DNA of 41,229 nt from NCBI GenBank assembly GCA_031285265.1, contig JAITWM010000125.1, positions 1 through 41,229 of the forward strand, read 5' to 3'. Origin of the DNA: Lysobacteraceae bacterium. Its GTDB lineage: Bacteria > Pseudomonadota > Gammaproteobacteria > Xanthomonadales > Xanthomonadaceae. This document shows, piece by piece, positions 25,725 through 41,229 of this stretch; the stretch's first letter is position 1; each line of letters starts with the position of its first letter. The notes under the pieces are model-generated. The model saw nothing but the letters and a program-made list of their open reading frames with translations, ran no database searches and had not been told where the DNA came from. The position numbers and the translations under genes are program-made.

Positions 25725-27902
25725 TCAAGGCCGCCGCACATTCTGCACGACCTGGAGCCGGCGCAAACGGCGGATCACCTCGGCCAGATGATTGCGATTA
25801 CGCACCTGGATCACAAACCGCAGCGTCGCCACATTGACATCACGATCCAGGAAATCGACCTGATCGATATTCGATTGCCCCTGCGCCACCGTCGCGGCTA
25901 GTTGTGCCAGCATTCCGGTGCGGTTTTCCACATCGATCACCAGCGACGCATCGTAATCGCCGACGACATCCGGGTCCCAACCGATCGGAACCAAACGCTC
26001 CGGCGATTTTCGCAACTCGGCCAGATTGCTGCATCCCTGCCGATGCACCACGATGCCCTTGCCGGCGGTCAGATAACCGACGATGTCGTCGCCGGGAATC
26101 GGCTGACAACAATTGGCGAAGCTGACCACCCCGCGCTCGGTGCCGCTGATTAGGATCTTCTCCTGCGAACGGCGCGACGCGCCATCGCCATGCAGGTCGG
26201 CATAATTCATTAACGCCTGTGCCGCCTGATTCGGCATCCAGTTGCCCAGCGCGACATCCGATAGAAACATCTCCAGCCGCTGGTAGCGATGCTCGGCAAG
26301 GAACGCATCGAGCCGCTTCGGCGGCAGCCGTTCCAGCGAACTGCCCATCACCTCCAATACCCGGTCCAGCATCCGGTGCCCCAATTGCACCGCGTCTTCA
26401 TGTTCCAACTGTTTCAACTGATGCCGAATCGCCGTACGCGCCTTGCTGGTCACGACGAACTCCAGCCACTGCGGTTTGGGAGTAGCGGATTTGGCCGTGA
26501 TGATTTCCACCGTCTGACCGCTGTGAAGCTTGGTACGCAACGGCACCAACTTCTTGTCCACACGCGAAGCGACCGCCCGATTGCCGACATCGGTATGCAC
26601 CGCGTAAGCGAAATCCAGCGCCGTGCTATTGCGCGGCAGCGCCAGAATCTTGCCTTTCGGGGTGAACAGATACACCTCATCCGGAAACAGATCGACTTTG
26701 ACGTTTTCAAGGAATTCCAGCGAAGAGTCCGCCGATCGCTGCGATTCGATCAGTTCGACGATCCAAGCATGCGCACGGCTCTGCGCATTGTTGGAATTAT
26801 CATCGCCGTATTTGTAACTCCAATGCGCAGCAATGCCGCGTTCGGCGATCAAATCCATTTCTTCGGTACGGATCTGCACCTCGATCGGCGAGCCATACGG
26901 GCCGAACAACACGGTGTGCAACGACTGATAACCATTGGCCTTCGGAATGGCGATGAAATCGCGAAACCGGCTGTCCAACGGCTTGTACTGCGCATGGACC
27001 GCGCCAAGCGCATGGTAGCAATCGGCCACTTTGCGCACGACTACGCGGAAACCGAACACATCCATGACCTGATCGAAACTTTTTCCCTCGTTGCGCATCT
27101 TGCTGTAGATGCTCCATGGAGTCTTGATCCGGCTGACCAAGCGATGTTCGATGCCATCGCGCGCCAACCCCTGCGACAGATGCGCTTCAACCTGGGTGAT
27201 CGCTTCCCGCCGCATCACCGGCTGGCTGCGGATACGTTTCTCGATCACGGCATAGCGCCACGGATACAACGCACGGAACCCGAGATTCTGCAACTCGGCC
27301 TTGATCAGGTTCATACCCAAGCGTTGCGCGATCGGCGCATAGATTTCCAGCGTTTCACGCGCAATGCGTCCGCGCGCCTCGCCGCCCTGCGCACCCAGCG
27401 TGCGCATGTTGTGCATACGGTCGGCTAGTTTGATCATGATCACGCGCAGATCGCGCGACATCGCCAGCAACATCTTGCGAAAGCTTTCCGCCGCCGCCTC
27501 CTTGCGATCGCGGAATTTCAGCTTGTCCAGCTTGGTGACGCCTTCGACCAATTCCGCCACGGTTTCGCCGAATCCGGAGGTCAACGCCTCATGCGTCAGC
27601 GGCGTGTCCTCGATCGTGTCGTGCAATACCGCCGCGATCAGCGCTTCGACATCCAGGCCCATCTCGGCTAGTACGACCGCCACCGCAACCGGGTGCGTGA
27701 TATAGGGCTCGCCGGACTTGCGCGTCTGCCCGGCATGCGCGGCTGCGCCCGCTTCGCAGGCGCGCTGCAATTGCATCTTTTGATCCTCCGGCAAATAGGC
27801 GGCAGCATCAAGCAATGCAACGACATAGTCCGGCAGCATGGCATCCGGCGCCGACGGCGCCGTTCGGGATTTGGAAGATTTGGAGGATCGATACGGGCTC
27901 AT
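25725..27902 (-). CDS. spoT: Bifunctional (p)ppGpp synthetase/hydrolase SpoT
   Basis: A 725-residue long RSH protein that makes and degrades the alarmone (p)ppGpp. The hydrolase HD domain is intact (YITHPVAVAVVLAEMGLD; LHDTIEDTPLT). The synthetase domain has FGFRVVVRKVADCYH and RFRDFIAIPKANGYQSLHT: the RFRD motif is the basic RxKD-type form of Mn-dependent bifunctional enzymes. TGS (VYLFTPKGKILALPRNST), a central helical/zinc-finger region (ANCCQPIPGDDIVGY) and a C-terminal ACT domain (RTGMLAQLAATVAQGQSNI) follow. It starts 91 bp after the relA stop and is followed by ridA after 165 bp. No rpoZ gene sits upstream in the usual place. Confidence 0.95.
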   Translation of the reverse strand: MSPYRSSKSSKSRTAPSAPDAMLPDYVVALLDAAAYLPEDQKMQLQRACEAGAAAHAGQTRKSGEPYITHPVAVAVVLAEMGLDVEALIAAVLHDTIEDTPLTHEALTSGFGETVAELVEGVTKLDKLKFRDRKEAAAESFRKMLLAMSRDLRVIMIKLADRMHNMRTLGAQGGEARGRIARETLEIYAPIAQRLGMNLIKAELQNLGFRALYPWRYAVIEKRIRSQPVMRREAITQVEAHLSQGLARDGIEHRLVSRIKTPWSIYSKMRNEGKSFDQVMDVFGFRVVVRKVADCYHALGAVHAQYKPLDSRFRDFIAIPKANGYQSLHTVLFGPYGSPIEVQIRTEEMDLIAERGIAAHWSYKYGDDNSNNAQSRAHAWIVELIESQRSADSSLEFLENVKVDLFPDEVYLFTPKGKILALPRNSTALDFAYAVHTDVGNRAVASRVDKKLVPLRTKLHSGQTVEIITAKSATPKPQWLEFVVTSKARTAIRHQLKQLEHEDAVQLGHRMLDRVLEVMGSSLERLPPKRLDAFLAEHRYQRLEMFLSDVALGNWMPNQAAQALMNYADLHGDGASRRSQEKILISGTERGVVSFANCCQPIPGDDIVGYLTAGKGIVVHRQGCSNLAELRKSPERLVPIGWDPDVVGDYDASLVIDVENRTGMLAQLAATVAQGQSNIDQVDFLDRDVNVATLRFVIQVRNRNHLAEVIRRLRRLQVVQNVRRP

Positions 27903-27993
27903 GCAGCAAGACTACGACGACGCCATAGCGACGGTGAACTGAATACCATAAAGCGTCTGCATCACAAGCGGAAGCGCGGATTTGAACATCGGC

Positions 27994-30174
27994 TCATCCC
28001 AAGCGGCGTGCTTCGTCCACGCCGGGCAATGCAGCCAATTTCCCCAGTACCGTCGAGAGCTGTCCGTAATCGGCCACCCGCAACCGCAGCCGCAGCCGCA
28101 TGTACCCATTGGCGCGCGTTTCACTGTGAATCCCTAGTACATGCGCGTCTTCCTGTGCGATCAGCGTGGTCACATCCTTGAACAGCCATTTGCGGTCCAC
28201 CGCGTTCACCTGGACATCCACTTCATAACCGTTGCCGCCGTTCCCCCACTCCACCGTCAACACCCGTTGCGGATGCTCCGCCGCCAAATGCGCAAAAGCA
28301 CTGCAATCGGTGCGATGCACGGTGACGCCGCGATTGCGTGTCAGATAACCGATGATCGGCTCGCCGGATACCGGCTGACAGCAGCGCGCCAACTGCACCA
28401 GCAGATTGCCCACCCCCTGCACCGTAAAGCCATTCTTGTTCTCCTTGCGCTGACGGCGCCCCGGTGACGGCGAGGACGGCGCTATCGTCTGCGCCAGCGA
28501 CGGTTGCGCCTGCGCCCGCTCATATTCGTGCAACGCACGCCCGACTTGGCTCGGCCCGACATCCCCCAACGCCACCTGGATATACAGATCATCGATGCTG
28601 TCGGCATGAAACTTCTTCGTCACCGTCGCCAGATCGGCGTTATACAACCCTAAACGCCGCAATTCCCGATCCAGCAGCTCCTTGCCGTCCTGGACATTGC
28701 TCACCCGATCCAACTTGTGGAACCACGCCCTGACCTTGTCGCGCGAGCGTCCGCTGGCCAGATACCCATTCGCCGGCAGCAACCAATCACGGCGCGGGTC
28801 GGCCTCTTTCGATGTCAGCACCTCGACCCGATCGCCACTGCGCAGACGGTAACTCAACGGTACGATCCGGCCATTGACCTTGGCCCCGCGGCAACGATGC
28901 CCCACCATCGTATGCACGTGATAGGCGAAATCCAGCGGCGTCGAGCCGGACGGCAGATCGATCACTTCTCCCTTCGGCGTCAACGCATAGACGCGATCCT
29001 CAGCCAATTCCGCATCGAGCGCTCCCGCCAGTCCTTCGCCGTCACGGCTGCCATCGGCCGACTGTTCCAACAACTGACGCATCCAGGTGATCTTGCGATC
29101 GAACGCCTTTTCGGCTCCCTTCCCGCCTTCCTTGTAGCGCCAGTGCGCGGCCACGCCCAGCTCGGCCTGCGCATGCATCTCGTGCGTGCGGATCTGCACT
29201 TCCACGGTCCGGCCTTCCGGGCCGATCACCGCCGTATGCAACGAACGGTAACCATTGGCCTTGGGGCGGGCGATATAGTCATCGAACTCGCTCGATATCG
29301 GCGTCCACAATTCGTGGACGATGCCCAACACCGCGTAGCAAGCGGCAAGATCGTTCACCAGCACCCGTACCGCGCGCAGATCGTAAAGCTGATCCAAGGA
29401 TCGCTGCTTCTTCTGCAGCTTCCGCCAGATGCTGTAGATATGCTTGGGACGGCCGCTGATCTCGCCATCGATGCCGTGTTTCCGCAACGCCTGCTGCAAA
29501 GTCGCCTTGACCGACTCGATATAGTTTTCACGCTCGCTGCGGGACTCATCCAATTCATGCGAAAGATAACGGTAGGTATCCGACTCCAGATATTGAAACG
29601 CCAGATCCTCCAGTTCCCATTTCAATTGCCAGATACCCAATCGATTGGCCAACGGCGCATGAATATCACGCGTCAATTGCGCCAGCGCCCGGCGCTGTGC
29701 CTCGGGCAGATCCCCGGCAACGCGCATCACCGCCAACTGCCGCGCCAGCAGAATCGGCACCACGCGCAAATCCTGCACGATCGCCAGCAACAATCGACGC
29801 AGCCCCTCGCTGTTGCGCCCGGCCTCGCGTCCGGCATGCAGCGTCCATACCTGCGCCGCCGCATCCTGACCATCCAGCAATCCGGCCACCATCGGGAACG
29901 GCTGCTCGGCCTGTTCGCTCAACGCCGCGCGCAGACCGGGCAGGTCGAACAGCAAGGCCGCCGCCAACGTGATCTCGTCGGCCGACAACAACGCCAGCGC
30001 ATCCAGCGTATCGGCCAGCACCGGCCATGACGTAGCGACCGCACGGTCCGTTTCGGGCCGGTTCCACGTCTGTATCAGCCACTGCCGCATCGCCGGCGAC
30101 AACGTGCGCACCGACGGACGCGACAGCACATCCTCCAGATTTTCAAGCGGCGAACGATTCACGGCGAAACACAC
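27994..30174 (-). CDS. relA: (p)ppGpp synthetase RelA (degenerate hydrolase domain)
   Basis: A ribosome-associated alarmone synthetase of about 726 residues, responding to uncharged tRNA. The N-terminal HD domain is inactive: no HDxxED is present, and the corresponding place reads LLFDLPGLRAAL. The synthetase domain has LYDLRAVRVLVNDLAACY and EFDDYIARPKANGYRSLHT, where EFDD is the acidic ExDD motif of Mg-dependent, synthetase-only RelA. TGS (VYALTPKGEVIDLPSGST), RIS/zinc-finger (LARCCQPVSGEPIIGY) and ACT regions follow. The start is GTG at 30174, with a second in-frame GTG at 30162 (VNRSPLENL) also plausible. Lying directly before spoT is notable, because the two are usually unlinked in gammaproteobacteria. 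Confidence 0.94.
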   Translation of the reverse strand: MCFAVNRSPLENLEDVLSRPSVRTLSPAMRQWLIQTWNRPETDRAVATSWPVLADTLDALALLSADEITLAAALLFDLPGLRAALSEQAEQPFPMVAGLLDGQDAAAQVWTLHAGREAGRNSEGLRRLLLAIVQDLRVVPILLARQLAVMRVAGDLPEAQRRALAQLTRDIHAPLANRLGIWQLKWELEDLAFQYLESDTYRYLSHELDESRSERENYIESVKATLQQALRKHGIDGEISGRPKHIYSIWRKLQKKQRSLDQLYDLRAVRVLVNDLAACYAVLGIVHELWTPISSEFDDYIARPKANGYRSLHTAVIGPEGRTVEVQIRTHEMHAQAELGVAAHWRYKEGGKGAEKAFDRKITWMRQLLEQSADGSRDGEGLAGALDAELAEDRVYALTPKGEVIDLPSGSTPLDFAYHVHTMVGHRCRGAKVNGRIVPLSYRLRSGDRVEVLTSKEADPRRDWLLPANGYLASGRSRDKVRAWFHKLDRVSNVQDGKELLDRELRRLGLYNADLATVTKKFHADSIDDLYIQVALGDVGPSQVGRALHEYERAQAQPSLAQTIAPSSPSPGRRQRKENKNGFTVQGVGNLLVQLARCCQPVSGEPIIGYLTRNRGVTVHRTDCSAFAHLAAEHPQRVLTVEWGNGGNGYEVDVQVNAVDRKWLFKDVTTLIAQEDAHVLGIHSETRANGYMRLRLRLRVADYGQLSTVLGKLAALPGVDEARRLG

Positions 30175-30302
30175 ACCCTGGCGACGATACCACTACACTA
30201 ACATCAGGAAACTTCCGGGCAAGTCCGAAATCCTCCGCCCCTGCCATATCCATCGGGATGACCGCTTTCTCTTCTTCATTACCCGCTTTTCGAGGAACCC
30301 TC

Positions 30303-30818
30303 ATGCGCCGTCCGAGTCTGTCCCCCTTCTTGCTGTTCCTGCCGCTCTTTTTTTCCGCCGGTGCCGTCTGCGCGCAACAGACGATGACCAGCGATATAGA
30401 AAGACAAATGACCCCTGCCGAGTTCACCGCATCGGGCCTGGACAAACTGACTCCGCAAGAACTGGCCGCGCTCAATGCCTGGCTGCAAGGCAAGGTTCGC
30501 CAGGAAACCGCCGCCGCGGCCGCCGCCGCGCGGGCAGAGACCAAGAAGGAAATCGAAGACGAGAACCGGGGATTCTTCCATTTCGGCTCGCGCGAGCCGA
30601 TCATTTCCATTATTTCCGGCACCTTCACCGGCTTCGCCCAGGGCCGTCGCTTCCAGCTCGAAAACGGCCAGATATGGGAACAGATCGAACCCGCCTCGCT
30701 CGCCGGCGTGCGCCAGGAAAACCCGCACGTCGCCATCCGTCCCAGCATGATCGGCAATGCCTGGTACATGCAGATCCGAGGCTACAACACCACCGCCAAA
30801 GTCCGCCGCGTGGAATGA
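30303..30818 (+). CDS. Small exported protein of unknown function
   Basis: A protein of about 171 residues with a clear signal peptide (RRPSLSPFLLFLPLFFSAGAVCA, cleavage near VCA-QQ). The mature part starts with a short helical region (MTPAEFTASGLDKLTPQELAAL), an Ala-rich coiled helix (ETAAAAAAARAETKKEIEDE), then a beta-rich domain (SIISGTFTGFAQGRRFQLEN followed by GQIWEQIEP and WYMQIRGYNTTAKVRR). I chose the ATG at 30303 because CGAGGAA lies just upstream; an ATG 45 bp earlier lacks this and would spoil the signal peptide. Similar proteins occur in Xanthomonadales genomes as unnamed secreted proteins. No enzyme motif seen. Confidence 0.8.
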   Translation: MRRPSLSPFLLFLPLFFSAGAVCAQQTMTSDIERQMTPAEFTASGLDKLTPQELAALNAWLQGKVRQETAAAAAAARAETKKEIEDENRGFFHFGSREPIISIISGTFTGFAQGRRFQLENGQIWEQIEPASLAGVRQENPHVAIRPSMIGNAWYMQIRGYNTTAKVRRVE

Positions 30819-31037: not shown

Positions 31038-32606
31038 TCATATCCGCGACGATTTTTCGACTGATGGGGGCGGGTCTGCCAAAGCGACAAGCAGATCCTG
31101 GATCTGCACCGGTTGAGCAAAGAAATAGCCTTGCAGAAGGTTGATCCCCTTGGTTTTCAGATAATCGACTTCCGACTGCGTTTCGATGCCTTCGGCAACG
31201 GTATCGAGCTTCAAGCGATCAGCAAGATCCACGATGCTGTCTAGAATGTGCCGCGCGGACTTGTTTGTGGGTACACCGGAGACAAACGCCCGATCGATCT
31301 TCAGCACATCCATTTGGAACTCCATCAGGTATTTCAGATTGCAGTAACCGACGCCGAAGTCATCGAGAGCCAGATGGACACCAATCTCGCGGAACTGCCG
31401 CAACCGCTCTAGGATCTCATCTGTCGCGACGATCTCCTCGCGTTCGGTCAGCTCAAGAAAAAGCGAAACGCCCGATGGGGATAAGCGCACCAGAAAGCGT
31501 CGGCAATAGTCGTAGAATCGAGAATCGACAAGATGAGCCGCCGAAATGTTGATCCCGACATGGAAGGGCTTCGGTAACTTATCCGCCACCGGAGCAAGCT
31601 CATCGGCGACGCATCCAAGAAGGTAGGTGGTCATCGGAACGATCAGCTCCGTACGCTCCATGAAAGGTATGAAGACATCGGGCGGTATCATGCCTTCAAG
31701 CGGGTGCTGCCAGCGAACCAACACTTCCACCCCCGCCCAGCTCTTCGCATCTCCACTGGTGAGAGGCTGATAGTAGGCAACCAGCTCACCGTTGCGTAGG
31801 CCTCGCTGCAATTCCGCGCGAAAGCTCCGTGCCTGGGTCAGAAACCTGTACGCGCCATAGCCTCCAACGACCCCAAGACACACGATAAGCGCCAAAAGAG
31901 GCCAGAAGCGGCTCCATAGATAGGCCCAAGCCGCATCGGTGGCGAAACCGGTCTTGATCGAATACGGATATCTGCCGGAGTTCGTCGTAACAAAGCCGAT
32001 TGGCAGGGACGTGAATTCACCTTCATGTATCTCCCCCCTCGAATCCAGCCATACCGATCCGATCGACAATACAGATTCATCGGAAGACTCGCCAAGACCC
32101 AGAAGTTGTGAGACGTGGAGTACATCGATGTAGGAAACGACCGAACGTTGGCCGGACGCGACTCGGACGCCCACCATGGATTTCCCAGGAGCGACGATTC
32201 TACTAATAAACAAGCCCAGCTCGCCGTCGACGAAAGACCGTTCCGGTTGGGCAGGTACAGCAGATCCGCTGACCGTACTGCAATAGACGTTCATTCCATC
32301 GAGCAATTGCATCGCGAATACAAAAGTGGCGGCCGCCGACCGGCGCCGCAGTTCACTGACGACCTGATTGCATTCACCTCCGAGTAGTTCCGCTGCCGAC
32401 GACATCGCCTGTTCTGTGCTATCGAGGATAGCGTCTATGCGCATGATGATTTCCTGATTCTGTCCGCTTGACGAGACTTCGAGCGCATTACGAGAGGCCC
32501 AGATCGCCAATGGCAGTCCCAGAAGAATAGGTGCAAACGAGACGAGCGCTACGATTCCAACGCGTTTCAGTCTCCAGCGATTATGCGCGAAGCCGACGTT
32601 CTTCAT
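31038..32606 (-). CDS. CSS-motif EAL domain cyclic-di-GMP phosphodiesterase
   Basis: A 522-residue inner-membrane enzyme predicted to hydrolyse c-di-GMP to pGpG, lowering this second messenger. Layout: first membrane helix (VGIVALVSFAPILLGLPLAIWA), a periplasmic sensor domain with Cys in GGECNQVV and VYCSTVSG (variant of the CSS motif), a second helix (LLALIVCLGVVGGYGAYRF), then an EAL domain. Catalytic signatures are present with variation: GVEVLVRW (EVL for EAL), NISAAHL, LELTERE, LALDDFGVGYCNLKYL, LKIDRAFV, TVAEGIET and QGYFFAQP. The acidic and lysine metal/water ligands appear intact, so activity is likely. In E. coli CSS-EAL proteins, a periplasmic disulfide controls activity and stability. 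Single gene. Confidence 0.93.
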   Translation of the reverse strand: MKNVGFAHNRWRLKRVGIVALVSFAPILLGLPLAIWASRNALEVSSSGQNQEIIMRIDAILDSTEQAMSSAAELLGGECNQVVSELRRRSAAATFVFAMQLLDGMNVYCSTVSGSAVPAQPERSFVDGELGLFISRIVAPGKSMVGVRVASGQRSVVSYIDVLHVSQLLGLGESSDESVLSIGSVWLDSRGEIHEGEFTSLPIGFVTTNSGRYPYSIKTGFATDAAWAYLWSRFWPLLALIVCLGVVGGYGAYRFLTQARSFRAELQRGLRNGELVAYYQPLTSGDAKSWAGVEVLVRWQHPLEGMIPPDVFIPFMERTELIVPMTTYLLGCVADELAPVADKLPKPFHVGINISAAHLVDSRFYDYCRRFLVRLSPSGVSLFLELTEREEIVATDEILERLRQFREIGVHLALDDFGVGYCNLKYLMEFQMDVLKIDRAFVSGVPTNKSARHILDSIVDLADRLKLDTVAEGIETQSEVDYLKTKGINLLQGYFFAQPVQIQDLLVALADPPPSVEKSSRI

Positions 32607-32787
32607 GGGCTTTTAAGTTATCCGCATGAGGCATTTTTTCGTTCCTCTCGCATATGCTTTGCCGGGCTCATCGGACGAACGCTATTCCGACGGACCGCCG
32701 AGGCTGGCTTAAGGAACGCTCGTCCGAGCCATCATTGTCATGAAAAGATAATCAAGCGTGAATCCGACAATCAGCAAGAGACCGTGA

Positions 32788-33060
32788 CGGCCTCAGAATA
32801 GCCTCGCTGCCAGTCTGCGCGAGATGGATCGAATCAAGTGTACGCCATTCATGCCGAAATAGCTGTGGGATTTAGTACTGCGGCGGCGCATGCCGGCCGA
32901 GATCAACAAGGGCGAAGTGTGCAATTTACCCACTCGGACAGTCTTCACAACCCGACAAGATTCGCGACCGATCGCATGACAACCAGTGCTGCCAGGCCAG
33001 CGGCCTGAATCTCGTGGCAGCCGCTATCACACTGTGGAACACGGTTTATCCAAGCTGCAA
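32788..33060 (+). pseudogene. Remnant of a Tn3-family transposase (tnpA), C-terminal region
   Basis: Translation in one plus frame gives RPQNSLAASLREMDRIKC, a stop at 32860, then [20 protein letters not shown]. After a frameshift near 32950 it continues [18 protein letters not shown] and [12 protein letters not shown]. These blocks follow, in order, the Tn3-family TnpA C-terminal pattern ([62 protein letters not shown]). The gene is dead: an internal stop, a frameshift, no N-terminus. No terminal inverted repeats or resolvase were recognised. It fills most of the space between the EAL gene and the first attC-like site and marks an old transposon insertion at the array edge. Confidence 0.8.
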
Positions 33061-33127
33061 TTGCACTGGCACAATCGTGCCATGCATAACAAGCTCGTCA
33101 GGCATTGCGCGCTCAGGTTAATCTTGC

Positions 33128-33185
33128 ATCTGACTCTACGCTCAAACGGACGGCCTTCGACCACCACTTGCCGCAAGCGTTAAAG
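33128..33185 (+). repeat. attC site 1
   Basis: The left box ATCTGAC and the right box GTTAAAG flank a centre with GCTCAAACGGACGGCC, a TTCG loop and ACCACCACTTGCC. It has the same layout and length (about 58 bp) as the next site, and is the first attC after the Tn3 remnant. No gene was recognised in front of it as its own cassette. Confidence 0.75.
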
Positions 33186-33251
33186 CGACGGCGCCACGGT
33201 CAGCCGTTCGCTTTATGGCAAAACTTACACCATCAGATCAGCCGCCAGACA

Positions 33252-33818
33252 ATGAAAAACACCATCTTCGCATTCGTATTAGTCTTTGCAGTCCTGCTCA
33301 CAGGCGGCTGCAACCAGACGGATGAACACGGGAGTGCTCCAGCTTCCGCCCCGGATCAACAAAGAGTCGATTCCGAAAAAGACAGCCATCAAATGCACGG
33401 AAACTCAAAGGAAGATTTTCTGGAATACCTCGAGAGCGGGAAAGCATTATCTTCATTTTTCAGCGACCATTGGACACTGGTCTATCACGAAGACAACCGA
33501 TGCGACGGCTCTACAGACGGGGAGGCGACCGGTCTAGCCAGGGCCGAAATTGATAAAACCATCGAGATAAAGGTAAAAAACGATGGAAAAAGCTGGCTTG
33601 AAGATTGTGGTGAAAAAACCCCCAGAGAGTTTGACCTGAATTTCAACTTGAAGGAACTAGTTTCAAATTGGGATAGATTTGAAATACCCGACTGGGAAAA
33701 TCAAATGGAAGGCGTTGTCTATATTATCGGCAGTGGAGAATCCGATTATCTCGTACTGCATTACGGCGATGACAATCTGATAGTAAAAATGGAATATCGC
33801 AGTGAAGATCCGGGCTGA
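33252..33818 (+). CDS. Cassette-encoded lipoprotein, unknown function
   Basis: A 188-residue putative lipoprotein. The signal peptide MKNTIFAFVLVFAVLLTGGC ends in a lipobox with Cys20. The mature protein is strongly acidic (EDFLEYLESGKALSSFFSDH; TLVYHEDNRCDGSTDGEA; DLNFNLKELVSNWDRFEIPD; VVYIIGSGESDYLVLHYGDD), with no domain I recognise. I chose the ATG at 33252 because it gives a complete lipoprotein signal; the frame is open further upstream through the attC but without a ribosome binding site. Codon use is more AT-rich than in the core genes. It sits between attC sites 1 and 2. Confidence 0.8.
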   Translation: MKNTIFAFVLVFAVLLTGGCNQTDEHGSAPASAPDQQRVDSEKDSHQMHGNSKEDFLEYLESGKALSSFFSDHWTLVYHEDNRCDGSTDGEATGLARAEIDKTIEIKVKNDGKSWLEDCGEKTPREFDLNFNLKELVSNWDRFEIPDWENQMEGVVYIIGSGESDYLVLHYGDDNLIVKMEYRSEDPG

Positions 33819-33935: not shown

Positions 33936-33993
33936 GCCTGACTCTATACTCAAGCGGACAGCCTTCGACTGCTGCTTATCTTTTACGTTAGAT
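33936..33993 (+). repeat. attC site 2
   Basis: GCCTGAC at the left and GTTAGAT (exact GTTRRRY) at the right enclose ACTCAAGCGGACAGCC-TTCG-ACTGCTGCTTATC, about 58 bp. Directly upstream, 33905-33928, CCAACC and GGTTGG form another small inverted repeat whose source is unclear. Confidence 0.85.
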
Positions 33994-34009
33994 TCCTACT
34001 GGGTATCTC

Positions 34010-34429
34010 ATGTACGAACAACATCTAAAGTTTAATTTTTCCGCAGACGCATCGCACGAAACACGCCTGTCATTCGTCGCGGAGCTTGCGCAACGACACC
34101 CCAAATACTTCTGGTACACCATCGAGCACTCCCCATCGGCGCAATGCGGCACATTCATCGTTCTCCAACCGGGTGTCTGGTCCAGCGTACTGGCAACGGC
34201 ACAAACGGCGCAGGCCGGCGGACTGATTCAAATCGTCTCACCCAAGCAGTACCGTTCCGCCACATGCGTGTTCAAACCTATGTCGTTTCTGATCTCTTAC
34301 TCTGCACTCGGCCCATATTTGGCCTCGCAATTGCATTCCGTGCTGATGCGCCAAGGTGCTATACTTCGTATCTCGCGCACTCGATTGGACTTCTATCAGA
34401 TTTTGCGCTCAAGCTGGGCCGCCGTTTAA
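34010..34429 (+). CDS. Cassette protein of unknown function, 139 residues
   Basis: No family recognised. The ATG lies 17 bp after attC site 2. The protein starts MYEQHLKFNFSADASHETRL, has a mixed alpha/beta look (RHPKYFWYTIEHSPSAQCG; TFIVLQPGVWSSVLATAQTA; GGLIQIVSPKQYRSATCVFK) and a hydrophobic stretch (PMSFLISYSALGPYLASQL), but no clear signal peptide. The last dozen codons run into the degenerate attC that follows, which is common for cassette genes. It could be soluble and domain-like; function is unknown. Confidence 0.6.
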   Translation: MYEQHLKFNFSADASHETRLSFVAELAQRHPKYFWYTIEHSPSAQCGTFIVLQPGVWSSVLATAQTAQAGGLIQIVSPKQYRSATCVFKPMSFLISYSALGPYLASQLHSVLMRQGAILRISRTRLDFYQILRSSWAAV

Positions 34430-34465
34430 CTTATTACTTCAAGCCGCTATACGCTATACACAAGA
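34396..34465 (+). repeat. Degenerate attC-like site
   Basis: GCGCTCAAGC, GGGCCGCCGTT and GTTTAAC resemble the centre and end of the neighbouring attC sites, but the TTCG loop and a clean left box are missing. A second RYYYAAC-like reading (GTTTAAC followed by ACTTCAAGCCGC) is also possible. I read it as a deleted attC between two cassettes. Confidence 0.45.
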
Positions 34466-34479
34466 CAAAGGGACTTCCT

Positions 34480-34866
34480 GTGAACTACGTACATATCATT
34501 GCGGTACTTGCGATTCTCCAATTCTCTCTTTTTGGTATTTTTGTCGGTCGCGCCAGAGCAAAATATGGGGTAAGCGCCCCTGCGACATCCGGCCATGAAC
34601 TTTTTGAACGTGCTTTCCGCGTTCAGATGAATACCCTCGAACAACTGGTTGGATTTTTACCAGCCCTTCTCATCGCAAGCTTATATTGGCCCAACGCGAT
34701 CATTGCAGGTATCGGCGCCGTCTATTTGGCAGGCCGATTCATTTACAGACAGTCGTACCTCGCAGACCCGGCCAAGCGAGGCCCGGGCTTCTTGCTAACT
34801 GTCATCCCTACATTCATTCTTTTAGCTGCCGCAGTCGCGGGTGCAATTACGCGGCACGCAGCCTAA
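34480..34866 (+). CDS. MAPEG family membrane protein
   Basis: A 128-residue integral membrane protein of the MAPEG superfamily, relatives of microsomal glutathione S-transferase. Four hydrophobic helices are visible: VHIIAVLAILQFSLFGIFVG, EQLVGFLPALLIASLYW, IIAGIGAVYLAGRFIY and GFLLTVIPTFILLAAAVAGA. The motif ERAFRVQMNTLEQ matches the conserved E-R-x(2)-R-x-x-x-N-x-x-E block of helix 2. The start is GTG at 34480 with AAAGGGA 6 nt upstream. The stop lies inside the left box of attC site 3 (GCCTAAC). Bacterial short MAPEG proteins are often uncharacterised; glutathione conjugation is possible but unproven. Confidence 0.88.
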   Translation: MNYVHIIAVLAILQFSLFGIFVGRARAKYGVSAPATSGHELFERAFRVQMNTLEQLVGFLPALLIASLYWPNAIIAGIGAVYLAGRFIYRQSYLADPAKRGPGFLLTVIPTFILLAAAVAGAITRHAA

Positions 34867-34918
34867 CTTTAGGCTCAAGCGGGCGGCCTTCGGCCGCCAT
34901 TTATCTTGCATGTCAGCT
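34861..34918 (+). repeat. attC site 3
   Basis: The left box GCCTAAC is an exact RYYYAAC. The centre GCTCAAGCGGGCGGCC-TTCG-GCCGCC forms the most complete hairpin of the array. The right end reads GTCAGCT, a decayed GTTRRRY. Confidence 0.88.
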
Positions 34919-34952
34919 CTCAATCCTCACCCATTGGAAGACACAATTCATT

Positions 34953-35483
34953 ATGAACAAAAAGGAAATCAAGGCAAGAATCGGTGAACTTTTGTCATCG
35001 GGTACTCCAAAAGCAGAGATATTCGCCCAGCTTTCCGGCCAGGGCATCAAAGACAGGCTGCTCGCCATTTACATCGCCTGTTATCCAGACTCTGCACTCT
35101 TCGATCGACACCGCGGAAAGGTCAAGCTGCTGGTTGCCATAATGCTTGCCAAGGCAGTCATAGTCTTTCTTCAGACCTACTATATTCTCGGCGAAGAATT
35201 CGGACCGAACGCCGAATTGCCATTCGTCGCTTTTCTGATAGCGTCTATTGAACTGCTGTTTGCGAGAGGCTTCTATACAAAGCGCGTGGGAGCTTATGAC
35301 GTGTACGTGCTTCTCTCCATATTATCGATGCGAAGATTACTCGTAGATTTCTCCTTGGTTGGCATTATCATCAAGATCGGAATAATAACCTACGTTATAT
35401 ACGTGCGGTGGAAGATTCTCCCCAAGGCTCCTTTTCTTGCGATACCAAGGAAAGTCAAAGGGCAGTATGTCTTTGTGGACTGA
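34953..35483 (+). CDS. Cassette-encoded membrane protein, unknown function
   Basis: A 176-residue protein starting MNKKEIKARIGELLSSGTPK, a soluble helical N-terminal part of about 45 residues (AEIFAQLSGQGIKDRLLAIY). At least four hydrophobic segments follow: VKLLVAIMLAKAVIVFLQTY, LPFVAFLIASIELLFARGF, YDVYVLLSILSMRRLLVDF and LVGIIIKIGIITYVIYVRW. It ends in a basic tail. I chose the ATG at 34953, the first giving the polar N-terminus and lying after attC site 3; the frame is open far upstream but through other cassettes. No family name can be given. Confidence 0.75.
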   Translation: MNKKEIKARIGELLSSGTPKAEIFAQLSGQGIKDRLLAIYIACYPDSALFDRHRGKVKLLVAIMLAKAVIVFLQTYYILGEEFGPNAELPFVAFLIASIELLFARGFYTKRVGAYDVYVLLSILSMRRLLVDFSLVGIIIKIGIITYVIYVRWKILPKAPFLAIPRKVKGQYVFVD

Positions 35484-35517
35484 CTCTCCGCGGAAAAGCC
35501 ATTGTGTTTCAACCATT

Positions 35518-35575
35518 ACTTAACCATCTGGTCCAGCGGACAGTCAGCTGGATACGCTGTCTGTCTACCACTGAC
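35518..35575 (+). repeat. Degenerate attC-like site
   Basis: ACTTAAC followed by CCAGCGGACAG and then CGCTGTCTG is reminiscent of a left box and attC core with a partial inverted repeat, but no clean right box follows. Its position between two cassette genes supports the reading more than its sequence. Confidence 0.4.
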
Positions 35576-35597
35576 CTTCGTCACTAGCAGGCGAAAA

Positions 35598-36128
35598 TGC
35601 CGATGAAGCATCAATACGACTACCGGCCAGGATGGATGGCCATTTTTCCCGCCTTATTCTTCGGTGGTCTGTTTATACCCACCTTCTGGGACATCTATGA
35701 AAATGGCTATGACCTGACCCAGACCCACAACGGGGAGGAGCGTTGAGGAGGCTTATCACCGCTTCCGGCGGCTATTTCGCCGTCATCCGCATGATAGTAC
35801 ATCGACGAATCGGCTTAACTGAGGCCGTGATTATGATCCCTCGTTCACGCTGGTCCGGTAAGGGAATCGCGATCCCGTTTACCGAGATTGTCGAGTGGAG
35901 AGAACATCACGATCTCACGATCGTATACAACAGAGGCAAGTTCAATTTGAACGCATCGATGCTGCCAAGAAAAAAGATTTTGATGACATCTGCACAGCAG
36001 TCGATCGAGGCGTGAGCGCCACCCGGATGCATGCCGCTGAGACTATCGACGATCTGCTGCGCACACTTCAAATGCTTGAGGGCAAGTTGCGCGCTCATAG
36101 TTTCAGGAAGTTTGATCCTGCTGCGTAG
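35598..36128 (+). pseudogene. Frameshifted cassette gene (PH-like membrane protein)
   Basis: Three reading frames seem to belong to one former gene. The first (35598-35747) encodes MKHQYDYRPGWMAIFPALFF and a hydrophobic segment, then stops. The second (35743-36015) encodes LTEAVIMIPRSRWSGKGIAI and FNLNASMLPRKK, like the end of small bacterial PH-domain proteins. At the A6 run 35970-35975 a one-base shift restores KKDFDDICTAVDRG, a better continuation than the frame actually in register. Alternatively 35598-35747 and the next frame are two coupled small genes; the overlap of TGA with a TTG start allows that. Decay in at least one place is the simpler view. Family assignment is tentative. Confidence 0.5.
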
Positions 36129-36308
36129 CTGCTTGCCGAAGCTTCGTTGAACATGGCAGTTCCAGGCGCGTCTGTAGCAGCGCCAGGATCATCCTTGCAT
36201 TTACTGCCGGACCTTCCACTGAAATCACTGCATTTGAATTTTCTGCTCAGCTTACCGCACCAGACACGGCGTTACTCCGCTACTTGTCGTGCCGTCATGC
36301 AGCCAGTA

Positions 36309-36361
36309 GCCTTACGCTTGAGCGGACGGCCTTCAGCCGCCGCTTGCCTTGTGCGCTAGGC
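36309..36361 (+). repeat. attC site 4
   Basis: GCCTTAC (one change from RYYYAAC) and GCTAGGC (one change from GTTRRRY) flank GCTTGAGCGGACGGCC-TTCA-GCCGCCGCTTGCC. Slightly shorter than sites 1-3. A further exact right-box-like GTTGAAC occurs at 36146-36152 and may mark the lost end of another attC between this site and the broken gene. Confidence 0.8.
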
Positions 36362-36408
36362 CACCCTACAAGAGCACGTCGGACAAGCAATATTACGAAT
36401 GAGATACC

Positions 36409-36768
36409 ATGCCCACTGACCGCATCGAAAAGCTACTTCAGGACATACGCCTGCTCGACAATGCACGTTTCGAGCTTATGCAGTCGTTGCGAGAGTTGAT
36501 CCTAAACTTGGACCCTTCGATTTCTGAGGAAGTCAAATACGGCGGCCTGCTATTCTCTGTGAGCAAGCCCTTTTGCGGCATCTTTTCTTACGCCAAGCAT
36601 GCCTCGCTCGAATTTGTAGAGGGAGCGTCGCTGCCGGACAAATTCAAGCAACTGGAAGGCGAAGGCAAACTGCGTCGCCACATCAAACTGTCATCGCTTC
36701 AAGACATCGAGGCCAAACATGTCCGCGAATATTTACTATCGGCGCTCGGTGCGTCCCGAAAATCATGA
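36409..36768 (+). CDS. DUF1801 domain protein
   Basis: A 119-residue soluble protein resembling the DUF1801 (YdhG-like) family: MPTDRIEKLLQDIRLLD, then EEVKYGGLLFSVSKPFCGIF (the conserved E-x-x-K/W-x-G-x-P/L-x-F block), SYAKHASLEFVEGASLPD, GKLRRHIKLSS and the closing DIEAKHVREYLLSAL. The family has a small alpha/beta fold with no established reaction. It is complete and lies between attC sites 4 and 5. DUF1801-type genes are frequent integron cassette cargo. Confidence 0.85.
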   Translation: MPTDRIEKLLQDIRLLDNARFELMQSLRELILNLDPSISEEVKYGGLLFSVSKPFCGIFSYAKHASLEFVEGASLPDKFKQLEGEGKLRRHIKLSSLQDIEAKHVREYLLSALGASRKS

Positions 36769-36797: not shown

Positions 36798-36855
36798 TAG
36801 TCTAACTTTGTGCGCAAGCAGGCAGTCCTCAGCCGCCGTTTAGTGCGGCAATCAA
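36798..36855 (+). repeat. attC site 5
   Basis: The left box GTCTAAC is an exact RYYYAAC. The centre GCGCAAGCAGGCAGTCC-TCAG-CCGCCGTTTA is recognisable, but the right box is unclear (GTTTAGT or further on). The next gene's Shine-Dalgarno sequence follows within 20 bp. Confidence 0.75.
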
Positions 36856-36884
36856 GCTTCATCCACTCCAAGGAGGATTCGAGA

Positions 36885-37616
36885 TTGACTTTGTATATAA
36901 AGTACATAACGCTGACGCTCCTTTTTGTTGCCGTCCCAGCGCTCTCCGAAACATCCAGTTCTTTTAATGCCTGGATACCAAAAAACTGGGAACTCATTGC
37001 GACCGCAACAGGTGATTTAAACCGAGACGGAATTGAGGATGCGGTGCTTATATTGGAGCAAACGGATCCTGCCAATCTCGTGTCCAATGAAGGACTTGGA
37101 AGTTCAATCCTTAATCTGAATCCTCGCCGCCTTCTTATCCTGCTCAAGACACCTGAAGGCTATCAACAAGCCCTGAGCAGAGATAACCTGCTTCCAAGCC
37201 AGAACGATAATGACGCACCATGCCTGGCGGATCCGCTTCTCGAAGAGGGCGGTATCTCGATATCCGACGGAAAGCTCATGATTCAATTGGGAGCATGGTT
37301 AAGCTGTGGTGGCTGGGGCGTATCACATGAAACATTTACTTTCCGCCTTGAGAACGCCCGTTTCAGCCTTATTGGCTACGACTATTCGACGTTCGCTCGT
37401 AATTCAGGCGAAGCATCCGAAGAGAGCATCAATTACCTGACTGGCCGGAGAAAGACCACTACTGGTCTAAACATATTCGGTGATTCAGAGCCAAAGGTAT
37501 CGTGGAACCGAATTTCTGGCAGCCGCGAATTTTATCTGGACAATATGGTTTTCGACTGTAATCCAAATGACGAGCAGTACGACGAGTATCACTCCAGTTG
37601 CACTTGGAGCCGATAG
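36885..37616 (+). CDS. Cassette-encoded exported protein, unknown function
   Basis: About 243 residues beginning at a TTG start at 36885, chosen because a perfect AGGAGG lies 8 nt upstream and because it leaves a compact signal peptide (TLYIKYITLTLLFVAVPALS). The mature part has ATGDLNRDGIEDAVLILEQT, an EF-hand/FG-GAP-like D-x-N-x-D-G loop, then ISISDGKLMIQLGAWLSCGG and WGVSHETFTFRLENARFSLI, and ends with VFDCNPNDEQYDEYHSSCTW; the Cys residues could form disulfides. Similar D-x-N-x-D-G repeat-start proteins occur among cassette-borne exported proteins. No enzymatic motif was identified. Confidence 0.8.
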   Translation: MTLYIKYITLTLLFVAVPALSETSSSFNAWIPKNWELIATATGDLNRDGIEDAVLILEQTDPANLVSNEGLGSSILNLNPRRLLILLKTPEGYQQALSRDNLLPSQNDNDAPCLADPLLEEGGISISDGKLMIQLGAWLSCGGWGVSHETFTFRLENARFSLIGYDYSTFARNSGEASEESINYLTGRRKTTTGLNIFGDSEPKVSWNRISGSREFYLDNMVFDCNPNDEQYDEYHSSCTWSR

Positions 37617-37628
37617 GGAAACAACCGT

Positions 37629-37685
37629 GCCCAACCTTGTGCTCAAGGCAAACGGCTTCACCACCGCCCACCCTGTACGTTAGGG
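37629..37685 (+). repeat. attC site 6
   Basis: GCCCAAC (exact RYYYAAC) and GTTAGGG (GTTRRR with a changed last base) enclose GCTCAAGGCAAACGGCTTCACCACCGCC. The core differs by several bases but keeps length and order. Confidence 0.85.
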
Positions 37686-37714
37686 TATGCAACCGCAACC
37701 ACTCGAATCAAAAA

Positions 37715-38071
37715 ATGGAACAGACATTTGCCGAACGTTTCGCCACCGACTGGATCGATTCATGGAACGCCCACGATCTGAACAGAACCCTCTCGCACTA
37801 CGATGATGATTTTGAAATGTCATCGCCGGTAATAGTCCAAGTGACAGGGGAGCCTTCCGGGACGCTTCGTGGAAAACCCGCTGTTCAAGCGTATTGGAAA
37901 AAGGCACTAGCGCTTATCCCCGATTTGAAATTTGAATTACTGTCGGTTCTTGTCGGCGTAAACAGCATCACTCTTTACTACAAAGGAGCGCAGGGCCACT
38001 TGGCCGCTGAAGTTTTTCACTTTGGCCCGAATCAAAAAGTAGTGCGAGCATTTGCGCACTATGCAACGTGA
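37715..38071 (+). CDS. NTF2/SnoaL-like protein
   Basis: A 118-residue soluble protein with the NTF2-like cone fold signature: FAERFATDWIDSWNAHDLNR, LSHYDDDFEMSSPVI, then LRGKPAVQAYWKKALALIPD and ITLYYKGAQGHLAAEVFHFG, ending KVVRAFAHYAT. The N-terminal W-x-x-A/N-H-D pattern, the D-D-x-x-x-x-S/P core and the G-x-x-A-V-x-x-Y-W helix are typical of the SnoaL-like group. Members bind or transform small hydrophobic ligands or are structural; the substrate here is unknown. I chose the ATG at 37715; an earlier in-frame ATG lies inside attC site 6. Complete, between attC sites 6 and 7. Confidence 0.85.
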   Translation: MEQTFAERFATDWIDSWNAHDLNRTLSHYDDDFEMSSPVIVQVTGEPSGTLRGKPAVQAYWKKALALIPDLKFELLSVLVGVNSITLYYKGAQGHLAAEVFHFGPNQKVVRAFAHYAT

Positions 38072-38076
38072 CTTGC

Positions 38077-38137
38077 GCCCTAACAATTCATTTACCCAAA
38101 ACGCGCTGAAGCGCACCGACCAATTCAAACGTTAGGC
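38077..38137 (+). repeat. attC site 7
   Basis: GCCCTAAC at the left and an exact GTTAGGC at the right flank a different core (CAATTCATTT, ACGCGC, GCGCACCGACC, CAATTCAAAC). The CAATTCATT...AATTC arms resemble the Vibrio-type attC more than the other sites in this array, so this cassette may have a separate origin. Confidence 0.85.
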
Positions 38138-38142
38138 ATGGC

Positions 38143-38493
38143 ATGCGCTTTTCCCTGAATGGCAAAACATTCCGCTCCGTAGCTAACTCAGCTAATAGCG
38201 AAGTCGGCGCTGAGACGATCTTTCACTTCAGCCAAGATGAGCGAGTTGTTACCGCAACTTACTCCGGCGGCCAAATTGTCTGCGGCCACCTGATTGCGAC
38301 TATGTCGGATAGTGGCGATCTTGATATGAGATACCACCACTTGAGCAAAAGTGGAGAATTGATGATTGGGAAATGTCTTTCCCACCTTGAGCAACTGCCC
38401 GACGGTCGAATCAAGTACCACGAGAGCTGGCAATGGTTGTGTGGCGATATGTCTTTCGGGCACTCTGAAATCGAGGAAGTTTCTACTGCCTGA
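38143..38493 (+). CDS. Small cassette protein (often labelled N-acetylglutamate synthase)
   Basis: A 116-residue beta-rich protein: MRFSLNGKTFRSVANSANSE, ETIFHFSQDERVVTATYSGG, GHLIATMSDSGDLDMRYHHL, PDGRIKYHESWQWLCGD. This small family is common in integron cassettes and its members are frequently annotated as N-acetylglutamate synthase, but it lacks any GNAT acetyltransferase motif, so I treat that label as unsupported. The ATG is 6 bp after attC site 7. The stop lies inside the left box of the following, truncated attC. Confidence 0.82.
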   Translation: MRFSLNGKTFRSVANSANSEVGAETIFHFSQDERVVTATYSGGQIVCGHLIATMSDSGDLDMRYHHLSKSGELMIGKCLSHLEQLPDGRIKYHESWQWLCGDMSFGHSEIEEVSTA

Positions 38494-38615: not shown

Positions 38616-39620
38616 TTATTTGTCGAACTGTTTCATCCTCTCCAATAACCGCGCATCTCTCTCCGGATCATTCACAAACTCACCTGAGAATTTCGGTTCA
38701 GGCCAACGATTCGGATCATCGGGCTCAATCACGCTCTCCGCCTCGATCTCAGGCGGCCACTCGGGCACCTTGCTACTTTTGAACACCAGCCAGCGCGTCA
38801 ACGTCAACATCCCATACACTGGAAACAGCAAATAACGGATGGAGTAAAGCGTCGGCCCAAGACTGGCCGCCACATGCACATAGCAATTGGTCCACGTTTC
38901 ATCGACCGAGGTATCGACGTAGTGGTCGAGCGGATTACTCATCACCTTATCCGCACCTTCATCCATATAGCGGCGAATGAACTCCCACAACGCCTTGATC
39001 CGCTTGATCTGCGTATCGTCGAAATAATGCCCGACCACGAACGTCTCCTTGACCGTATCGCCGTCCAGCACATGGCAGCGCAGGTCGCGGATGTATTTCT
39101 GATGCGCACCCTCGCCGATAAAGAAGAATGCCTGCTCCCACGGCACGCTGACCACTCCGCCGGGGCCATTGTGCTGGAATGCATGGACCATCCGCGTCTT
39201 GCGGTTGAAACGGATCGGATAGTGCGTATAGGTAAAGAAATCATGGCGGAGCCCAAGCCACCATGCAAAGACAACAGGAAGAAGAAACAATACAGAGAAA
39301 AAAACAAAGTCAATAATAAAAGACCGTATCCCTACATTTATATATTCTGGAATAACTATCTTAAACAATATAAATACATAGAAATACAACAATATCCCTA
39401 CAACCAGCAAATAAACCGCTGTTGCCACCATTCCCCGCAACCGGTAGCGCCGATCAATAAAATCCGCATAGGTCGAATTGAAATGGATTAGCGATGCCAT
39501 CTCGTCAGGCTCGATTCCCGGCTGATACTCCCGCTCCAACTCGACGTAACGCTCATCAAATCGCAGCTTACGATCAATCTCATACCCCTTATGACCAAAC
39601 GCTTTCCAACCGGTATACAT
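38616..39620 (-). CDS. DUF6708 membrane protein, partner of T6SS effector
   Basis: A 334-residue protein with two central hydrophobic helices (VATAVYLLVVGILLYFYVFI and FVFFSVLFLLPVVFAWWLG) and possibly a third later (YSIRYLLFPVYGMLTLTRWL). Between them lies a beta-rich block: HYPIRFNRKTRMVHAFQHNG, VVSVPWEQAFFFIGEG, HVLDGDTVKETFVVG. These match the DUF6708 pattern (P-x-R-F-N-R-K-x-R and V-P-W). Such proteins are regularly encoded beside VasX-like effectors and are candidates for immunity or stabilising partners; this is inference. The start follows the effector stop by 3 bp with GAGGTAAGG between. Bases 39240-39400, over the membrane helices, are strikingly AT-rich compared with flanking sequence. 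Confidence 0.8.
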   Translation of the reverse strand: MYTGWKAFGHKGYEIDRKLRFDERYVELEREYQPGIEPDEMASLIHFNSTYADFIDRRYRLRGMVATAVYLLVVGILLYFYVFILFKIVIPEYINVGIRSFIIDFVFFSVLFLLPVVFAWWLGLRHDFFTYTHYPIRFNRKTRMVHAFQHNGPGGVVSVPWEQAFFFIGEGAHQKYIRDLRCHVLDGDTVKETFVVGHYFDDTQIKRIKALWEFIRRYMDEGADKVMSNPLDHYVDTSVDETWTNCYVHVAASLGPTLYSIRYLLFPVYGMLTLTRWLVFKSSKVPEWPPEIEAESVIEPDDPNRWPEPKFSGEFVNDPERDARLLERMKQFDK

Positions 39621-39623
39621 GCC

Positions 39624-41229
39624 TTACCTCTGCAAGTTGCTCAAAGCAGCAAATGCCTTCGACTGTGCTTCGAAATTAGGAAATCTTCCATTGCCACTCG
39701 AATTTCCGAAATGCATCGTTCGTGCCAGCCACTTGCTGATATCGTCCGGCTTAAAGAAGCCCACCACTACCATTACGATTGCGATCACGATGGCCAAAAT
39801 AAACCCCAATGGCGCAAATGAAGTAAACATCAAAAAAACGGAAAAAAGTGACAAGACACCCAAGCCTATCATCGCTCTACCATATCCAGGACTGATCGGC
39901 ATTTCCTTGGTTCCATCATAAATGGACAAGATCCCTCCCATGATCCCGCCCGCCGCACCGATCACTCTTCCAGCGAATCCAATGACATCCGCCCTTGTTG
40001 CTAACCGAATGAACCGCCTGTGAATCGGCTTCGCCAACGGCATTGCACCCCATTGGGTGACTTTCAACGCCGCCGCCGAGGTCTCAAATCCGGCCCCGAC
40101 GAATGCCGCGATCGCGCTGCCGAATTCCAGCGTCTTCTGGTTGGCTCCCGCGCCGCCATCCTTCATCATCCCGTCCCAGCCCGACTTCAGCATCAGCCCG
40201 GCGAAAATCACGCCGATGAATCCGGTCTTGACCTCGACATTGGCTATCCGCGGCGAGGCGCGCCGCAACAGGCCCTCAAAATCCTCTTCGCGCAAGGCCG
40301 CCGCTATCGCCCGGTCGCGCGCGCCGGGCGATAGGCCGCGCACGTTCAACTGATTGTTCAGACGCAGCGCCGCCGCCTCGTCCATCACCAGGACGCCGCG
40401 GTACCGGTAGCTCTTCTGACCGTGCGCCTGCTCCGCGTCCACCCAACGCCGCGCCTGGCTGCGGAAACGCGACTCCGGCTGTCCGGTCATCGAGGCCATC
40501 GCGCTGGACAGCACCCGCGTCGCCTGCTGCCGGGTCAGGTCGATCTGTACCGGCAGCAGACGCATCCGCGGGTGCTCCAGCCGGTAAACCGTCGTCAGCA
40601 GCGACATCAGCCGCTTCTCCGGCAGCTTGCCCGCGCCCCAGGCCGTGACCGCATCGGTGGCATTGCCCAGCATCCGCGTGATCGGGCCGGTCATGTTCAG
40701 CGTGTAGTTCGCCACCGCCGCGAACGGGCCGCTCAAGGCTCCGCCCGTGCTGGCGTCGAGGATCGCCTTGAAACCGCTATACAGCCTGTTGCTGGCGCCC
40801 AGCCAATCCAACGGCTGGTCGGCCAGGTTCAGGCTTTGACCCGCCGCCTCCACCCACGGCCGTAACAAAGCCTCCTGGTTCAGCAGCAATGCCCGCAGCT
40901 CCACCTGATCCGTATCCAGAGGATCGGCGCGGAAGCAGGTCTCCAGATAATCGCACACGCTCTGCCGCCCGGTCGCGTCCTTCAGCACGATGTAAGCCGC
41001 CTGGGTATAGGCCACCCCGCTGTCGGGATGACGGGTATCGAAATTCTCCTTGAAATACCGCTTGAACACCGCCGATTTCAGCCACGCCAGGTACGCCGCG
41101 TCCAGCGGCACGATCCGGCGGTCCTCGAACCGCTTCAGTTCGCTGGGAAATAGCTCCGTCAGATAGTTCTGAACTCCCGCATGATCGTAATTGCCCTGGT
41201 ATTTGTCCCTCCAGCGCTCTTCTCCCTTT
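39624..41229 (-). CDS. T6SS effector of the BTH_I2691/VasX-like type, C-terminal part
   Basis: The last 534 codons of a larger gene that continues past the window edge; the frame is open to base 41229, so its start is not here. The visible part begins KGEERWRDKYQGNYDH and has a long mostly helical region (YFKENFDTRHPDSGVAYTQA; LLLNQEALLRPWVEAAG). A hydrophobic C-terminal region follows with several membrane-spanning segments (VKTGFIGVIFAGLMLKSGW; IGFAGRVIGAAGGIMGGIL; AMIGLGVLSLFSVFLMFTSF; PLGFILAIVIAIVMVVVGFF), as in colicin-like pore-forming VasX proteins. Delivery by type VI secretion into neighbouring cells is the known role of the family. The next gene on the strand is its probable partner, DUF6708. 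Confidence 0.82.
   Translation of the reverse strand, partial: KGEERWRDKYQGNYDHAGVQNYLTELFPSELKRFEDRRIVPLDAAYLAWLKSAVFKRYFKENFDTRHPDSGVAYTQAAYIVLKDATGRQSVCDYLETCFRADPLDTDQVELRALLLNQEALLRPWVEAAGQSLNLADQPLDWLGASNRLYSGFKAILDASTGGALSGPFAAVANYTLNMTGPITRMLGNATDAVTAWGAGKLPEKRLMSLLTTVYRLEHPRMRLLPVQIDLTRQQATRVLSSAMASMTGQPESRFRSQARRWVDAEQAHGQKSYRYRGVLVMDEAAALRLNNQLNVRGLSPGARDRAIAAALREEDFEGLLRRASPRIANVEVKTGFIGVIFAGLMLKSGWDGMMKDGGAGANQKTLEFGSAIAAFVGAGFETSAAALKVTQWGAMPLAKPIHRRFIRLATRADVIGFAGRVIGAAGGIMGGILSIYDGTKEMPISPGYGRAMIGLGVLSLFSVFLMFTSFAPLGFILAIVIAIVMVVVGFFKPDDISKWLARTMHFGNSSGNGRFPNFEAQSKAFAALSNLQR

Follow-up and report, generated by a model that had tools for sequence, protein, structure and literature searches.

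A decayed Tn3-family transposase fragment beside an integrase-less cassette array in a Xanthomonadaceae genome

The remains of a transposase gene next to an array of integron cassettes raise the question of whether the transposon brought the array to its locus, removed part of it, or simply became debris within it. Such a locus is found in the window considered here, that is, the whole stretch of DNA that was analysed (41,229 bp), which corresponds to one entire contig (C120) of a Xanthomonadaceae MAG with an assembly size of 2.44 Mb in 229 contigs. The RelA encoded in the window is 79% identical to RelA of a same-genus genome and about 75% identical or less to RelA of named Stenotrophomonas, Xanthomonas, and Pseudoxanthomonas genomes, which makes the host a small-genome member of the Xanthomonadaceae. 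An earlier note on this DNA had described a decayed Tn3-family transposase adjoining a cassette array and had suggested that a Tn3 element either delivered the array or removed its integrase end. The coordinates of the features discussed below are collected in Table 1.

Table 1. Features of the transposase relic, the cassette array, and their flanks
Feature	Coordinates	Strand	Remarks
CSS-motif/EAL cyclic di-GMP phosphodiesterase (left flank)	31038..32606	-	PF00563 E 3.5e-62, PF12792 E 4e-19
tnpA relic, left, most eroded part	32718..32793	+	Codons before and including SIKQGTVTAS; profile E 0.002
tnpA relic, first frame block (QNSLAASLREMDRI...LRRR...NKGE)	32794..32961	+	TAG at 32860-32862; PF01526 265-321
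tnpA relic, second frame block (IRDRS...NQ...)	32951..33050	+	PF01526 320-352; abrupt end of homology
Cassette 1 ORF	33105..33818	+	No Pfam family
attC1	33128..33188	+	33.8 bits, E 5.9e-7 by model excluding attC1
attC2	33936..33996	+	Models R2 and R3
Cassette 2, two ORFs	34010..34866	+	34010-34429, no family; MAPEG-family membrane protein ending at 34866, PF01124 E 2.3e-20
attC3	34861..34921	+	Models R2 and R3
attC4	36304..36364	+	Models R2 and R3
Cassette ORF, DUF1801	36409..36768	+	PF08818 E 1.9e-14
attC5	36800..36860	+	Models R2 and R3
Cassette ORF, SnoaL-like	37598..38071	+	PF12680 E 2.2e-10
attC6	37629..37688	+	Models R2 and R3
attC7	38078..38140	+	Models R2 and R3
DUF6708 protein (right flank)	38616..39620	-	PF20455 E 1e-17
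BTH_I2691-like T6SS effector (right flank)	39624..41111	-	NF041559 E 1.7e-33, below cut-off

The identification as a decayed Tn3-family transposase is confirmed at both the protein and the DNA level. With its two frames joined and X placed at the stop, the relic matches the Tn3-family TnpA profile PF01526 over positions 265-352 of 389 (E 2.8e-17). The six-frame search of the whole assembly with this profile returned exactly two matches, both at the relic: the first, at 32791-32961 (+), covers profile positions 265-321 and contains one TAG (E 2.1e-6), while the second, at 32951-33049 (+), covers positions 320-352 (E 1.4e-4). The two matches are consecutive and share two profile positions. The joined relic also matches NCBIfam NF033527 (E 2.7e-18), although its 65 bits fall short of the whole-protein cut-off of 500. 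A DNA profile built from 13 related tnpA genes (nhmmer) gives its sole match in the window at 32793-33069 (E 1.2e-49), and the alignment of the relic with the nearest tnpA scores 224, the best of 100 shuffles reaching 59. An accidental likeness to TnpA in random frames has a practically negligible probability; the broken frames are the sole point in its favour, and it is refuted by these E-values and by the comparison with shuffled alignments. Apart from the relic, at about 32718-33050, the assembly holds no trace of a Tn3 transposase.

Only about 330 bp of tnpA remain. The extent proposed earlier, 32788-33060, was correct as to location but not as to the left limit: the relic begins at about 32718, and clear homology stops at 33050. 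The collinear left piece (32718-32794) matches the codons just upstream in a 220-nt profile search (E 0.002); among 400 shuffles, four gave any match, all weaker. This piece was also aligned pairwise with six tnpA references. None of 500 shuffles was as good against L085 and L086, and one and two of 500 were as good against two further references; the alignments with the remaining two, L016 and L018, were not significant. By estimate from both alignments, about 35 nt have been deleted at 32794, between the left piece and the main block. None of the six references significantly prolonged the match beyond 33050. Because homology ends abruptly at this point, the roughly 60 codons before the usual TnpA stop and the right end of the transposon are gone.

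The earlier description of TnpA blocks in two frames, interrupted by a stop and a frameshift, agrees with the translation, which shows them in two forward frames, and with the PF01526 matches. The frame change is identified as a 5-nt deletion by alignment to intact tnpA. With the in-frame TAG at 32860, this deletion, and truncation at both ends, no intact TnpA reading frame is left. Differences between the relic and the nearest intact gene amount to 0.21, 0.21, and 0.47 at codon positions 1, 2, and 3, respectively, whereas intact tnpA pairs of comparable distance mostly show 0.08-0.23, 0.02-0.17, and 0.40-0.69. Change at the second position is raised relative to the intact pairs, as expected after loss of function. 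The relic is a dead fragment that would yield no product and serve no function today.

At the DNA level, the relic is closest to plasmid-borne tnpA copies from Pandoraea, Paraburkholderia, Cupriavidus, Delftia, and others. The nearest is the copy in Pandoraea oxalativorans plasmid pPO70-3, and identity to the nearest tnpA is 69-70% over 257 aligned nucleotides. In several of these plasmid relatives, a classical 38-bp end (for example GGGGTCGTCTCAGAAAACGGAAAATAAAGCACGCTAAG) immediately adjoins the stop codon of tnpA. The short terminal repeats of the closest relatives are presumably of the Tn21-like class; too little of the relic is left to assign it firmly to a subgroup.

The neighbouring array is a CALIN, a class defined by at least two attC sites and no adjacent integron integrase, since it contains seven attC sites and no such integrase. 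All seven sites lie on the forward strand and are found in the window at E 1e-8 or better by covariance model R2, which was made from the sites of the array together with three clean ones from relatives and in which the R''/R' and L''/L' helices were specified. Model R3, built without attC1, recovers all seven at E 5.9e-7 or better. In the family, model R2 finds 58 attC sites at 18 loci around integron integrases, and the sites of the array are therefore assigned to the xanthomonad chromosomal type. The most decayed site of the array is attC1, in which six positions (three pairs) no longer pair; it is 68% identical to attC2 over 56 nt. Its start lies 77 bp from the end of the relic, so that the earlier statement that the relic adjoins a cassette array also stands. 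Model searches detected no further attC in the assembly and no attC at all in G001, the genome of the same genus, and the Rfam search of the window gave no match. No integron integrase (TIGR02249) was found in the assembly, where four partial XerCD-like matches on other contigs remain below the cut-off. Since the MAG is only 86.65% complete, intI may lie on an unassembled contig.

Several ORFs of the array match no family. The ORF of cassette 1 likely starts at an internal ATG in a lipoprotein-like MKNTIFAF...GGC segment. The ORF at 38143-38493 (+) begins 2 bp past attC7, has no attC behind it, and matches neither Pfam nor NCBIfam; it resembles a last cassette with its own attC lost. The interval between attC3 and attC4 (34922-36303) spans 1.4 kb and holds two or three ORFs. 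A vague attC likeness at about 35510-35590 may be an eroded site, and the model gives no match there. An imperfect inverted repeat at about 32667-32733 was considered as an upstream attC. It folds no better than shuffles (z -0.53) and is partly tnpA sequence, and this reading was dropped. Elsewhere in the family, the member L076/G009 has roughly a hundred attC sites on contigs C3, C4, C8, and C15, representing a large cassette collection.

The relic sits in the upstream region of the EAL gene, beyond which relA and then spoT follow leftward. The relA and spoT homologues are arranged in tandem at 25725-30174 (-), as in G001, G011, and many other xanthomonads. Of 80 relA loci in named xanthomonads, most retain the neighbouring gene, but none has the EAL gene, the cassettes, or DUF6708. 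Consequently, everything from about 30.8 kb to the end of the contig is regarded as lineage-specific. A scan of genome contigs with the small gene at 30143-30769 found nothing. For an empty-site comparison, G001 keeps relA-spoT and its contig ends 886 bp after relA; because of this early end, and because the EAL gene, cassettes, and DUF6708 are missing at the other 80 loci, there is no comparable junction. On the right side, the DUF6708 and BTH_I2691-like genes (38616-41111, -) form a possible effector/partner pair at the array border. Seven clustered DUF6708 matches occur on contig C4 of the relative G002.

The position of the relic is probably best described as that of a dead internal tnpA fragment at the first-cassette position (or at the lost integrase end) of the CALIN, where it would be a passive passenger with no part in moving the array. 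The fragment may have entered the first cassette by capture or by insertion, with trimming afterwards. The EAL gene and attC1 are 521 bp apart, and since this space is cassette-sized and followed by an attC, the relic can be placed in the slot of the first cassette. As cassette content, it has attC1 on its right and no attC detected on its left; models R2 and R3 find none between 32607 and 33127. The left boundary of this "cassette 0" is not recognisable, and membership of the relic in a cassette is accordingly argued from position and size. The available text of PMC12901181 cites the entry of cassettes into genomes at non-classical attG sites, and entry of this kind would leave no attC on the left side of the relic.

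An unlikely history is that an older integron received a Tn3 insertion at its integrase end and that an adjacent deletion removed intI, attI, and most of the transposon, leaving the array frozen. A Tn3-caused loss is possible because the array has no integrase end and the relic occupies the place expected for it, exactly on the intI/attI side and in cassette orientation. Intact intI is common in the family, where 188 of 297 genomes have a match above the cut-off. This suggestion of the earlier note thus fits by position, and positive evidence for it was not obtained: no trace of intI is present in the window or the assembly, and terminal repeats are missing. Moreover, according to the available text of PMC12444791, the integrase in Xanthomonas lies downstream of ilvD, and CALINs without intI are common away from that locus, about half of Xanthomonas genomes having them. 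The array studied here lies at a relA-side locus, and attC was detected at none of the 80 named xanthomonad relA loci. On both grounds, intI may never have been present at this site.

Arrival of the array inside a Tn3-family transposon, with the tnpA fragment as the sole remnant, is very unlikely. In its favour, integrons are known passengers of Tn3 elements (PMC7157771), the DNA from about 30.8 kb onward is lineage-specific, and the G+C content of the array is lower (0.50 versus 0.57). However, 38-bp repeats are found on neither side of the 32.6-38.6 kb region. With a matrix made from eight related 38-bp repeats, true terminal repeats score 47-55, while the best score in the window is 5.9, compared with a shuffled mean of 7.6. 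A search with the terminal repeat of one related element stayed at chance level, and no inverted 38-mer pair linking the two flanks was better than chance. The PF00239 search revealed no TnpR-type small resolvase in the assembly; the sole PF00239 protein is a 540-aa open frame on another contig, which is too long for a TnpR. The attC model that finds 58 sites at the 18 intI loci finds none in 20 regions (5-20 kb) around intact xanthomonad Tn3 transposases, and the attC sites of the array are themselves of the xanthomonad chromosomal type. Among 19 family genomes with located copies of both, intI and the Tn3 transposase are never close; in one of them, they share a contig at a distance of about 2.1 Mb. 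Several of these genomes are fragmented, so some linkage could be missed. The proposal that a Tn3 element brought the array is therefore unsupported.

The relic is a correctly identified, ordinary genomic fossil. Neither a decayed tnpA fragment nor a transposase gene in a cassette array is unusual, and the find has little significance alone. As a passive passenger, the relic would provide a modest data point on how integrase-less arrays gather debris at their ends. It also illustrates that a Tn3 relic beside an array, when terminal repeats are missing, is not to be read as the vehicle of that array. If a Tn3 insertion did remove intI and attI, and if intermediates were found in sister genomes, the locus would become a dated example of transposon-driven integron inactivation.

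Compared with known systems, the relic shares with Tn3-family TnpA (PF01526, NF033527) a series of conserved blocks, in the same order, from the C-terminal portion of the DDE domain. Unlike Tn3-family elements with Tn21-like repeats, it has a stop, a frameshift, and deletions, lacks the 3' end, and is accompanied by neither terminal repeats nor a nearby resolvase. Transposase genes inside integron cassettes are described in the available text of PMC12444791, in which transposases, integrases, or insertion sequences account for 47.7% of annotated Xanthomonas cassette proteins and 4.8% of all. The relic, too, derives from a transposase and occupies a cassette position in an array, but it represents only part of a Tn3 transposase, and the left cassette edge is not recognisable. 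The array resembles the CALINs of Xanthomonadaceae (PMC12444791) in having same-strand attC of xanthomonad type, no intI, a locus other than ilvD, and small ORFs of mostly unknown function. Its location, close to relA and bordered by an EAL gene and a DUF6708/T6SS-effector-like pair, is not among the Xanthomonas CALIN loci given in the available text. It further differs from these CALINs in that its first slot holds a tnpA relic.
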